DNA of 35,957 nucleotides from Candidatus Nitrosopumilus sp. (GTDB lineage: Archaea; Thermoproteota; Nitrososphaeria; Nitrososphaerales; Nitrosopumilaceae). This document shows positions 24,391 through 28,610 of this stretch, in pieces (the stretch's first letter is position 1; every line of letters starts with the position of its first letter). The stretch spans positions 1 to 35,957 of the forward strand of contig VMDM01000022.1 of NCBI GenBank assembly GCA_008080815.1, read 5' to 3'. The translations under genes and the position numbers were made by a program. A model generated the notes under the pieces. The model was not told the DNA's origin. It saw only the letters and a list, made by a program, of their open reading frames with translations, and searched no databases.

Positions 24391-24912
24391 ATGAAAAAAC
24401 AGCGATCAATGATTATCGCCTCATTTGTTTTGATATTTTTAGCCTCAGGATTTTCTGAAGTTTACGCTCATTCAATGTTTAATTCCGCAGAAGAATTCGT
24501 TGGAGGTTATAGAGTTCAAGTAGCAACAGCTCCAGAGTTTCCTCAGATTGATGAACCTTCTCAGTTCATGGTTCGAGTTACAGAGGGATTTGAGTTTGAA
24601 GAAGTAGATAGATTCACAATGGGAATCAGAGTATTCTATAATGATCAACAGATCGATGCCATTCCGCCAACATCAATTGAAGGCTCGCATTGGGATTTTG
24701 ACTATATTTGGCGAAATTCAGGAAATCACATTGTAAAAATTGATCTTTATGATATGAGTGAAGAAGGAGTACTCACATACACTTTCAATATGGGTACGCA
24801 GAGCCCATTTGGAGTAATTTTCATTGCCGCCATTACAGTAGGTGCATTAACAATGACTGGAGTTTTCATTTACATTTACATTCCAAAGTTTTTAAAAAAA
24901 TCTAAGCTTTAG
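24391..24912 (+). CDS. Exported, membrane-anchored protein next to terminal oxidase genes
   Basis: A 173-residue protein with a signal peptide (hydrophobic 8-22, likely cut after EVYA), an extracytoplasmic beta-rich domain (about 27-138, YRVQVATAPEFPQIDEPSQFMVRVTE and IVKIDLYDM), and a C-terminal membrane helix near 141-166 followed by a basic tail (PKFLKKSKL). The beta domain resembles small copper/YtkA-like secreted domains in layout, but I see no metal-binding set. It is convergent with the heme A synthase gene (11-base overlap). A TATA-like element about 27 bases before the ATG suggests a leaderless message. Confidence 0.75.
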   Translation: MKKQRSMIIASFVLIFLASGFSEVYAHSMFNSAEEFVGGYRVQVATAPEFPQIDEPSQFMVRVTEGFEFEEVDRFTMGIRVFYNDQQIDAIPPTSIEGSHWDFDYIWRNSGNHIVKIDLYDMSEEGVLTYTFNMGTQSPFGVIFIAAITVGALTMTGVFIYIYIPKFLKKSKL

Positions 24913-25345
24913 TAGTCATTGGAACTTTGGCAATCCTGAATGCAAAGATTGTCGTTAGTAACACCATAGAGAATAGTAAAATTCCCATACCAAGATGAAT
25001 TGCAACAAGTAATGCATGCAGTTTAAGATCTATTACTAGAGCTCCTAACGTAATTTGTGTAATTACAAATGCAGTTGCCAAACAACTAGTTAGTTTTATT
25101 TTCCAAGTTGAATTTTTGTTGATTAATGCGGCAGCCATTGTTGCAATAACTAGAGCACCTGTTGTAGCAGCAGCCAATCTGTGGACCCACTCTATAAGAT
25201 ATTCTTCTGAAGGCATTACACCATTTGGACACAATGGCCACTCAGGACAGGTTAATCCCAATCCTGCTGCAGAAATGTAACCACCTAAGAACATCAATGA
25301 ATAGAGAACTATCATTGTTGATAGGGCTAGGTATTGAATTGCCAA
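24902..25345 (-). CDS. ctaA: Half-size heme A synthase (CtaA-like)
   Basis: A 147-residue, four-helix relative of CtaA, which oxidises heme O to heme A for cytochrome oxidase. The cysteine pair loop TCPEWPLCPNG after the first helix and EWVHRLAAATTG with a heme-ligand histidine are conserved; a further His lies in AIHLGMG. Bacterial CtaA has eight helices from an internal duplication; this version has one half and would need to dimerise. It is the last gene of the oxidase operon, two bases after the cupredoxin gene, which supports the call. Confidence 0.88.
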   Translation of the reverse strand: MAIQYLALSTMIVLYSLMFLGGYISAAGLGLTCPEWPLCPNGVMPSEEYLIEWVHRLAAATTGALVIATMAAALINKNSTWKIKLTSCLATAFVITQITLGALVIDLKLHALLVAIHLGMGILLFSMVLLTTIFAFRIAKVPMTTKA

Positions 25346-25347
25346 AA

Positions 25348-26307
25348 TTACTCGACGATAAATGTTCCTTGCATTCCTTGTAATGCATGTCCTGGAACTG
25401 TACAGATGTAATAGTATGTACCAGGTGCACCTGCTAAGAAAGTAGTACTACCACCTTCACCTGGTTTTAGTGGACTAGACATTGATGCAATTTCAGAACC
25501 CCAAATTACATTGTTAAAGTCTTCAGGATTATTTACAACACCAAATGCATGGAATGATTTTCCATTGTTACTAGATGATATTGTAACTTCATCACCAGAG
25601 TTAACTCGAATTTCTGGATTGTGTCCATCTTCACCTGGTAATGCATTAAATGCTAAAGTTCTAAAATCAGATGACTCTACAAAATTTAATTCAAATTCAT
25701 GAGAAACTCCAGTAGGACCTGCAGCTACACCACTAGAGGAACCACCAGTAGCAGGACCTACAATTATCTCACCAACCATTCCTTGTTCTCTGTGTCCTGG
25801 AACAGTACAAATGTAATAGTATGTACCTTCTTCACCTGCAATAAATTCACTTGAACCAGATTCACCAGCTTTTAATGGATTTGATGCAGATGCGACTTCA
25901 GTTCCTGGAATGATTCCAGCGAATCCTTCATCAGCTTTTGTTACACCAAATGCATGGAATGATTTTCCACCGTTTTCAACATTAAAGACTACTTTATCAC
26001 CAACACTCATGTTAATTGTTGGATTATTTCCTGGTTCACCGGGTAATGCATTAAATACCAAATTTCTAAAGTCCGCAGATTCCAAGAAAACTAAATCTTG
26101 TGTAATTGTTTTTCCAGTTGCTACAGCTGGACCAGATGACTCAACTGAACCTGCCATCATTGCTACAACTGGTGCTGGTTGAGATATCCAGTAATCCCAT
26201 AATGAAAAGAAAATTGCACCACCAACTATGCAAATGCCTAGCATGATTGCCATCATTTTTCCAGTTCTGGCTGGCGTTGTTCTGTATACGTTTTGTTCGT
26301 GACTCAT
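25348..26307 (-). CDS. Membrane-anchored tandem blue-copper (cupredoxin) protein
   Basis: A 319-residue protein with an N-terminal membrane helix (about 18-36) and two consecutive plastocyanin-like domains facing outside. Each domain has the full type 1 copper set: His118, Cys167, His172, Met177 in the first and His253, Cys302, His307, Met312 in the second, both around YYYICTVPGH. The domains are so similar that they clearly arose by duplication. Encoded between oxidase subunit I and heme A synthase, it is a good candidate for the electron donor or an accessory copper subunit of the terminal oxidase. Confidence 0.92.
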   Translation of the reverse strand: MSHEQNVYRTTPARTGKMMAIMLGICIVGGAIFFSLWDYWISQPAPVVAMMAGSVESSGPAVATGKTITQDLVFLESADFRNLVFNALPGEPGNNPTINMSVGDKVVFNVENGGKSFHAFGVTKADEGFAGIIPGTEVASASNPLKAGESGSSEFIAGEEGTYYYICTVPGHREQGMVGEIIVGPATGGSSSGVAAGPTGVSHEFELNFVESSDFRTLAFNALPGEDGHNPEIRVNSGDEVTISSSNNGKSFHAFGVVNNPEDFNNVIWGSEIASMSSPLKPGEGGSTTFLAGAPGTYYYICTVPGHALQGMQGTFIVE

Positions 26308-26319
26308 TTTTTATTTCTC

Positions 26320-27846
26320 CTAGTGATGTGGGTTCTTTGCCTCAAATGGATAGTAGTATCTTCCACCTACACCGAATGGGTCTTCAATGTTTGCAGGTTT
26401 ACCTTTTCCAGCACTGTAAATCATGTTTGCAAGGAATATTGCCATACTGACACCAATAATCATTGCACCAATTGATGCAATTTGGTTCATTGTGATCCAT
26501 TCTGGAATTGGAGGATAATCGTAAATTCTTCTTGGCATTCCGTATAGTCCCAAAACGTGTTGGGTAAAGAATACCATTACAGTTCCGATAAATGACATTA
26601 CAAAGTGAACTTTACCCATTGTTTCATTATACATTCTACCAGTAACATATGGGTACATGTAGTAAAGATAACCAATTGAACCAAATGCGATTGTTCCCAT
26701 GACAAATAGATGGAAGTGTCCAACTACCCAATAGGTATCGTGAGTTGTAAAGTCTAAAGGCATTGCAGCATTTGCTACACCTCCTGCACCTGCAGAGAAG
26801 AACAATGCAATTCCACCAATTGCCCACATCATTGGTGTAGAGAATCTAATTCTACTATTCCACATTGTTGCTACAAAGTTAAAGACATGAAGTGCTGATG
26901 CTGGAACGGCAGCTAATGTACCTACCATAAAGACAGTCTTTTCTGTAAAGGACATTCCTGTTGCATACATGTGATGAGCCCATGATGAGAATCCTACAAT
27001 AGATAATAAAACAAATGCAGTAATTCCTGATTGATAACTGTGAATTGGTTTTCTTGAAAATCTTGGAATAATTTCATACATCATACCGATTGCTGGAATA
27101 ACTAGTACATACACTTCTGGATGGAATGTAAACCAGAACAAGTGAGCATATGCAATTGGATCTCCACCCATTGCAGGATTGAAAAATCCAGAGACTCCCA
27201 ATCTGTCTGTAAGTAACATCAAGAGTGCTGCTGCAAAGGTTGGCATTGCAACTAAAATGATTAATGATGAAGTCAAAAATGACCATGCCAATAATGGAAC
27301 TTGTCCCAAAGACATGTCAGGGTGTTTGCATCTCATTATTGTTACAACAAAGTTAATTGAACCAAGAATTGAAGAAATACCCAAAATCTTTAATCCGAAA
27401 ATCCACATGTCTGCTGCTGGACCTGGAGCACTAATGATAGAATATGGTGGTGTTGCATACCATGTAAAGTCTGCAAAGCCTAACCAAATGAGTGCACCTG
27501 CTGGTGGAATTAACCAAAATGCAATTGCATTTAGTTTTGGATAAGCCATATCTTTGTATCTGACCATGATTGGAACGAAATAGTTTCCTACTGCAGATGC
27601 AAATGGAATGATAAACAAAAAGATCAATGTTGTACCATGAACAGTAAACATTCTGTTAAATGTCATGGCATCGCCAATGATTTGGGAACCTGGTAAGAAT
27701 AATTCAGCTCTAATTGCAAGAGCTAGTGCACCACCAAGGAACAAGAATCCCAAGGACATAATCAAGTATAGTAAACCTACATCAGTGTGATGTGTTGAAA
27801 ACATTATTTGCCAAATTGGACGTGGTTTTTGAAGTTCCAGTACCAT
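26320..27846 (-). CDS. coxA: Heme-copper oxidase subunit I
   Basis: The 508-residue catalytic subunit of the terminal oxidase, with 12 or so membrane helices. The low-spin heme ligand is His70 (FTVHGTT). CuB and the cross-linked Tyr come from HPEVY (His242, Tyr246) and His291/His292. The two histidines at WVVGHFHLF are 377 and 379. The D-channel Asp99 (KDMAYPKLN) and Glu244 are present, giving an A-type pattern. The usual K-channel lysine before VFN appears replaced (LHVFNF, His320). It lies between subunit II and the cupredoxin gene. Confidence 0.97.
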   Translation of the reverse strand: MVLELQKPRPIWQIMFSTHHTDVGLLYLIMSLGFLFLGGALALAIRAELFLPGSQIIGDAMTFNRMFTVHGTTLIFLFIIPFASAVGNYFVPIMVRYKDMAYPKLNAIAFWLIPPAGALIWLGFADFTWYATPPYSIISAPGPAADMWIFGLKILGISSILGSINFVVTIMRCKHPDMSLGQVPLLAWSFLTSSLIILVAMPTFAAALLMLLTDRLGVSGFFNPAMGGDPIAYAHLFWFTFHPEVYVLVIPAIGMMYEIIPRFSRKPIHSYQSGITAFVLLSIVGFSSWAHHMYATGMSFTEKTVFMVGTLAAVPASALHVFNFVATMWNSRIRFSTPMMWAIGGIALFFSAGAGGVANAAMPLDFTTHDTYWVVGHFHLFVMGTIAFGSIGYLYYMYPYVTGRMYNETMGKVHFVMSFIGTVMVFFTQHVLGLYGMPRRIYDYPPIPEWITMNQIASIGAMIIGVSMAIFLANMIYSAGKGKPANIEDPFGVGGRYYYPFEAKNPHH

Positions 27847-27883
27847 TAGTTAACTCCTCCATTTGATTGTGATAAAAGGGTTG

Positions 27884-28312
27884 TCAAGATGATGGATCCT
27901 CCACAATTAATTTTCCTCTCATGTTATAGTGAATTAATCCACAGTATTCTCTGCATTGAATGTCATGCTCACCTGCTTTATCAGGAGCAAACCATACATG
28001 ATTTACTCTACCTGGGATTGCATCCATTAATACTACATAATCATGAATATTAAAAGAATGATTGACATCTTTGGAGGTCACTTCAAATTTGTAAGCTTTA
28101 CCAGTTTCTACATGTAATTCACCGATCTCTTTAGTTCCATCTTCATGTTCAAAGGTCCAAAACCATTGTTGACCAGTGACTTTGATCACGTGTGCATCTT
28201 CTGGATAATGTTCTACTAGTCTTTCTGCTTCCCAAGCTTCGGCACCTACCCAACACATTAGTGCAATTACTACACCAACATAGATCCATTCAGGCCATGC
28301 AGAGTGTGCCAT
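27884..28312 (-). CDS. coxB: Cytochrome oxidase subunit II, CuA domain (C-terminal part)
   Basis: 142 residues that begin exactly at the second membrane helix of subunit II (EWIYVGVVIALMCWVG, 8-23) and continue into the CuA cupredoxin domain. The CuA ligands are complete: His85 (VNHSFN), Cys120, Cys124, His128 and Met131 in CREYCGLIHYNM. The first helix of a normal subunit II is missing here and is found in the gene directly upstream (28313-28573), in the same frame and separated only by a TAG codon. Together they make a normal-length subunit II. Confidence 0.93.
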   Translation of the reverse strand: MAHSAWPEWIYVGVVIALMCWVGAEAWEAERLVEHYPEDAHVIKVTGQQWFWTFEHEDGTKEIGELHVETGKAYKFEVTSKDVNHSFNIHDYVVLMDAIPGRVNHVWFAPDKAGEHDIQCREYCGLIHYNMRGKLIVEDPSS

Positions 28313-28573
28313 CTACCAATCAGTCCCCTCATATGGAGTAGGTTTGGCTTTTGGATGGGATTCTCTAAATCTCCATACTTGCCAGATAATGGTTCCAGAG
28401 ACTACTGCACCTACTACAAATGCTATAGTCATCATTCTAAAGAATAAATTCCAAATTACTACACGTCTATCAAGATATTCACCTGGTTCATCACCTGCAG
28501 CAAATGCATATTCAGCAACAGGAATTACTACTAGAACCGCCAAAACTGCTAAAAGACCAATTACGCCCTTCAT
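28313..28573 (-). CDS. Cytochrome oxidase subunit II, N-terminal membrane part (split)
   Basis: 86 residues comprising a signal-peptide-like segment (likely cut AFA before AGDEPGEY) and one membrane helix (39-66, IWNLFFRMMTIAFVVGAVVSG). The protein ends WRFRESHPKAKPTPYEGTDW at a TAG whose next codon is the ATG of the CuA-domain protein, with no frame change. The sequence matches the first helix and connecting loop of subunit II. It therefore appears to be the first half of a split coxB, either a stable two-chain subunit or read through at TAG. A TATA box lies about 32 bases upstream of its ATG. Confidence 0.85.
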   Translation of the reverse strand: MKGVIGLLAVLAVLVVIPVAEYAFAAGDEPGEYLDRRVVIWNLFFRMMTIAFVVGAVVSGTIIWQVWRFRESHPKAKPTPYEGTDW

Positions 28574-28599: not shown

Positions 28600-28610
28600 T
28601 TCTATATAAG
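28600..28610 (-). promoter_or_regulatory. TATA box of the terminal oxidase operon
   Basis: The minus strand reads CTTATATAGA centred about 32 bases before the ATG at 28573. Initiation would fall near 28580, giving a leader of only a few bases. The operon then runs through split subunit II, subunit I, cupredoxin and heme A synthase with short gaps (0 to 37 bases). Confidence 0.65.

Follow-up and report, generated by a model that had tools for sequence, protein, structure and literature searches.

Introduction

The closest described counterparts of a two-chain subunit II are found among the ba3 oxidases and in mitochondria. In Thermus and Aquifex, the ba3 enzyme combines a one-helix CuA subunit (II) with a small one-helix chain (IIa) that stands in for helix 1 and is encoded by a neighbouring gene; IIa is 34–78 aa long, has the opposite helix polarity and carries the motif PX1-3GT/A (PMC3128077). 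Fission of subunit II into complementary chains, cox2a and cox2b, is known from the mitochondria of chlorophycean algae, alveolates and scoliid wasps, where the cut falls beyond the second helix, within the outer domain, and the two genes lie apart (PMC5374615). At the level of translation, experiments in Haloferax volcanii have established that archaeal reinitiation needs overlaps or very short distances (PMC6728339, PMC10666635), and genes whose products belong to the same heteromeric complex are overrepresented among pairs coupled by reinitiation (PMC10666635; PMC6728339).

For ammonia oxidizers, a complexome study listed coxB with one predicted helix and, as a separate entry, NVIE_027520, a “heme/copper-type cytochrome/quinol oxidase, subunit” that also has one helix (transcribed at a log2 TPM of 11.40 versus 11.87 for coxB); NCAV_1587, likewise a separate one-helix oxidase subunit entry, was detected in native gels (PMC10030591). 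A survey of archaeal gene fusions and fissions mentions complex IV only for the I–III fusion (PMC11237513), and no paper discussing a split subunit II in ammonia oxidizers was found in the literature searched. Here we describe such a split in a Nitrosopumilus genome and its conservation among relatives.

Results

The stretch of DNA analysed (hereafter the window) comprises 35,957 nucleotides of a Candidatus Nitrosopumilus sp. contig. An earlier note on this DNA had described an oxidase subunit II interrupted by a single TAG, with ATG as the next codon and no shift of frame. This was confirmed, as were its coordinates; the strand, which had been left unstated, is the minus strand. ORF1 (28313–28573, 86 aa) ends in ...EGTDW followed by the TAG stop (28315–28313), and the ATG of ORF2 (27884–28312, 142 aa, minus strand) begins at the very next base, 28312, without a change of frame.

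ORF2 encodes helix 2 and the CuA domain, as judged from alignment and from its matches to Pfam COX2 (4.3e-16) and to positions 58–193 of the 202-position NCBIfam CoxB profile (TIGR02866, 7.5e-31). Its CuA ligands H85, C120, E122, C124, H128 and M131 were invariant in an alignment of 13 diverse sequences and form the H...CxExCxxxHxxM set of an A-type subunit II. ORF1 matched positions 9–50 of the same CoxB profile weakly (E 0.0012), and neither ORF taken singly reached the CoxB equivalog cut-off. A profile built from 14 ORF1 homologues, however, aligned with helix 1 of one-gene CoxB proteins from deeper members of the class (hhalign E 6.6e-9, probability 95.8). These matches, the helix-1 profile alignment and the operon neighbours described below identify the two ORFs as the two parts of subunit II; since the CoxB positions they cover are complementary, the joined pair spans an ordinary subunit II in length and order, as had been claimed. 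The joined profile also aligned with the caa3 subunit 2yev_B over positions 43–227. An AlphaFold model of the joined chain was weak (pLDDT 60.7); its best matches in a Foldseek search were nevertheless COX2 chains, led by 2yev_B (E 4.9e-13), at TM-scores of only about 0.5, and no close sequence to the terminal oxidase of ammonia-oxidizing archaea was present in the PDB copy searched. Values of dN/dS between 0.05 and 0.21 showed both ORFs to be under purifying selection.

By eye, ORF1 consists of a putative signal peptide (approximately residues 1–25, with the signal-like start ...YAFA-A), helix 1 and a positively charged tail, WRFRESHPK. The signal-like N-terminus and the charged residues after the helix suggest N-out/C-in polarity, and the break between ORF1 and ORF2 would thus fall in the predicted cytoplasmic loop between helices 1 and 2 of an ordinary subunit II. 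With the break in this loop, the topology of subunit II would be kept and both chains could insert independently. Signal cleavage and the topology of both products are likewise predictions made by eye.

The pair appears to head an operon. A TATA-like box, TTATATA, recognised by eye, lies upstream of ORF1 (28603–28609, minus strand) and reads TTAAATA in relatives. On the same strand, ORF2 is followed by COX1, an A-type subunit I gene (26320–27846) that ends in TAG and has its own Shine-Dalgarno (SD) motif, GGAGGAG, at 27854–27860. Sequence matches then identified a membrane-anchored blue-copper protein with two cupredoxin domains, a putative electron donor (25348–26307), and half of a CtaA/COX15-like heme A synthase (24902–25345). 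The order ORF1, ORF2, COX1, blue copper, CtaA-like is kept in distant relatives. The spacing in gene number between NVIE_027520 and the blue-copper protein NVIE_027550 equals that between ORF1 and the blue-copper gene in the window, and NVIE_027520 is therefore probably the ORF1 homologue, as judged solely from gene order and numbering. On this reading, the Nitrososphaera annotation already lists the two pieces as distinct oxidase subunits.

Several features of the neighbouring genes were observed in passing. In COX1 of the window, HPEVY is retained in the active-site helix, and the K-channel lysine of helix VIII (GIKFF in the Mycobacterium chain) aligns with a histidine (ALHVF) beside a one-residue insertion. 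The blue-copper protein has tandem cupredoxin domains in 319 aa, and the gene at the same place encodes 284 aa in locus L183 and 191 aa in L184. In two Nitrososphaeraceae loci, L076 and L079, the CuA ORF carries an added C-terminal cupredoxin-like domain (280 and 328 aa between stops), resembling a fusion of the blue-copper donor to subunit II.

The junction was then surveyed across relatives. We searched 400 genomes of the class with the joined sequence, translating through stop codons and counting them, and obtained matches in 311. Some joined in-frame matches contained one TAG and others TAA; for the majority of same-genus genomes, only the CuA half matched, because its ORF sits in another frame. 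Junctions were taken from 159 loci, 134 of them distinct, and all 134 had two separate ORFs; we therefore class the pair as a split variant of A-type subunit II, which is otherwise a single polypeptide. The sense codon in relatives that the earlier note had named as pointing to a recent mutation or an error thus did not occur in any relative examined. Conservation of the TAG, which it had proposed to check among Nitrosopumilus genomes, did not hold either: the ORF1 stop was TAG in 67 loci, TAA in 64 and TGA in three, and relative to ORF1 the frame of ORF2 was 0 in 43, +1 in 17 and +2 in 74. These proportions are biased, because the initial search preferentially recovered in-frame loci; among the 80 loci retrieved with a query of the CuA part alone, 13 were in frame. 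The in-frame loci comprised 30 with TAG and 13 with TAA. On the gene tree we counted at least 16 changes of frame, at least 26 changes of stop and, among in-frame rows, at least seven switches between TAG and TAA; these counts are rough, as many inner branches are weak. The nearest relatives of the window, L035 and L037, read TAG-AAATG and are out of frame.

The conserved property of the junction is the distance between stop and start, while frame and stop identity vary. ORF2 began between −4 and +4 nt from the ORF1 stop in 131 of the 134 loci, through GTGA and TAATG overlaps, direct abutment or short gaps, and TAG was followed immediately by ATG in 20 distinct loci. Of the three exceptions, two offer other possible starts nearer the stop, and the remaining one is a draft in which ORF1 is broken. 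L019, from a complete genome (G103), has a double stop, TAATAG, followed by a TTG start, and in L111, a draft contig of Nitrosopumilus salaria BD31, a small indel, either a draft error or a real loss, breaks ORF1 before helix 1 is complete, with a normal-looking junction.

No clear SD at proper spacing had been noted before the second ATG, which is fair by eye: GAGGGG lies 12 nt upstream of the ORF2 start. A stretch within the ORF1 tail that is weakly complementary to the anti-SD, AGGGGACTGATT (28318–28329, minus strand), can form a bulged AGGGG..TGATT pairing of −8.9 kcal/mol, a value equalled by 20% of shuffles and hence non-significant. No 16S 3′ end turned up in the same genome or in 20 relatives (the rRNA seems to be missing or masked), and the canonical anti-SD of archaea was therefore taken. 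Deeper relatives have strong motifs in the same place of the ORF1 tail, up to −16.2 kcal/mol; in most loci of Nitrososphaeraceae and other deeper families a strong SD stands 6–9 nt before the ORF2 start, for example GGAGGAGGTG in L072, and the SD of Nitrosopumilus is weaker than theirs.

Discussion

We consider it highly probable, from the comparison of these sequences, that subunit II is made as two chains from split, abutting genes, the TAG being a true stop from which ribosomes reinitiate at the ATG. The earlier note had left open whether two chains assemble after translational coupling or the TAG is read through; the two ORFs in all relatives, the tight stop-start distance and the purifying selection on both support the former. 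A spacing of −4 to +4 nt is as expected of a termination-reinitiation pair. A start of ORF2 at its own site in the ORF1 tail, regardless of upstream termination, would also yield two chains and would account for the strong SD motifs of Nitrososphaeraceae and deeper relatives, and the window itself offers its −8.9 kcal/mol pairing. This motif is, however, weak, badly spaced and matched by 20% of shuffles, and the stop-start distance is held to a few bases in whatever frame. In Haloferax, moreover, nine of nine close pairs were strictly coupled and there was no de novo start at a downstream SD (PMC6728339). We therefore regard independent initiation as improbable. As the ORF2 start of the window has no clear SD, efficient reinitiation there is assumed from distance alone.

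The weak SD in the window does not favour readthrough of the TAG by a suppressor tRNA, by pyrrolysine or as a leaky stop, which would give one fused subunit II. Such a product would agree with the shared frame, the lack of intervening bases and the ordinary joined length. It should also keep the same frame and the same stop across relatives, whereas half of the loci end ORF1 in TAA or TGA, TAG and TAA are exchanged repeatedly among in-frame rows, and the CuA ORF is out of frame in 91 of 134 loci, where a readthrough product is therefore impossible. TAG is also an everyday stop in the window, ending nine of the 41 ORFs that are 100 aa or longer, among them COX1 in this operon, and no PylS scored over the cut-off (best 28.7 bits versus 178) in this genome, which is about 87% complete, while a control genome passed. 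Readthrough is thus not supported and we hold it to be very unlikely. A recent nonsense mutation, a pseudogene or an assembly error in one genome might be suspected in a source assembly that is fragmented (52 contigs, 87% complete), but all ammonia-oxidizer families examined have the split, independent assemblies repeat the TAG-ATG junction and dN/dS is low for both ORFs; the chance of this is negligible. A sequencing error at the TAG itself was rejected, as a 90%-identical genome (L003/L103) and other independent assemblies share the TAG|ATG junction.

We propose that the subunit II gene of an A-type oxidase has been cut where it encodes the cytoplasmic loop joining the two membrane helices. 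ORF1 would provide helix 1 on a chain bearing a signal peptide, and ORF2 would provide helix 2 and the CuA domain. One operon mRNA starting from the TATA box would carry ORF1, ORF2, COX1, the blue-copper gene and CtaA; ribosomes would stop at the TAG and reinitiate at the adjoining ATG, which would tie the amounts of the two chains together. Both chains would then assemble with COX1 into an oxidase with a two-chain subunit II of normal topology.

The split appears to be old. In a tree of CuA domains, a single branch with 99/98 support divides 19 one-gene forms from the split forms, 21 of ammonia oxidizers and three of families f7 and f16. The state thus changes a single time on this tree, and it is this single, well-supported change that argues for age. 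As the tree is unrooted, we infer fission and not fusion from A-type CoxB being a single gene elsewhere. L085, L086 and L090, from families f16 and f7, form a second divergent group with a split subunit II beside its own COX1. Family f7 also includes a genome with one-gene CoxB (L096) beside others that are split, and two oxidase lineages seem to coexist in it.

The split subunit II is real and functional; it is ordinary in mechanism and mildly interesting as an evolutionary variant. Ammonia oxidizers rank among the most abundant of the aerobic archaea. A two-chain subunit II means that a third small core subunit should be sought in structural and proteomic work on their oxidase, and it explains why coxB has been annotated as a one-helix protein. 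The more than 100 natural junction variants also illustrate how, at a coupled gene pair, selection keeps the stop-start distance and not the frame.

Compared with A-type (aa3/caa3) CoxB (TIGR02866, PF00116), the pair shares the order of helix 1, helix 2 and CuA, the predicted topology, the six CuA ligands and an adjoining A-type COX1; it differs in being two genes cut in the loop between the helices, with neither half passing the equivalog cut-off. The mitochondrial cox2a/cox2b pairs are alike in being a fission of subunit II into complementary chains, but here the cut lies between the helices and the genes abut. Known termination-reinitiation pairs likewise have stop and start a few bases apart and encode subunits of one complex (PMC6728339, PMC10666635), although most overlap by −4 or −1 nt, whereas distances of 0 to +3 are commonest here and −1 or −4 occurs in some lineages. 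The ba3 pair resembles the locus in its one-helix CuA subunit and small neighbouring stand-in for helix 1, but the partner COX1 in the window is A-type, and ORF1, at 86 aa, exceeds IIa in length, begins with a putative signal peptide and has, we infer, canonical N-out polarity. None of the 14 ORF1 members searched matched the CoxIIa Pfam family, and no PX1-3GT/A motif was seen by eye before the helix in the ORF1 alignment; assignment of ORF1 to the IIa family was rejected on these grounds. It seems reasonably likely to us that a single ancient fission between the helices of an A-type subunit II, before ammonia-oxidizing archaea left their split-form relatives, gave rise to an IIa-like but unreversed chain that has persisted ever since as a subunit of its own, coupled in translation, an A-type counterpart of the ba3 IIa and II pair.
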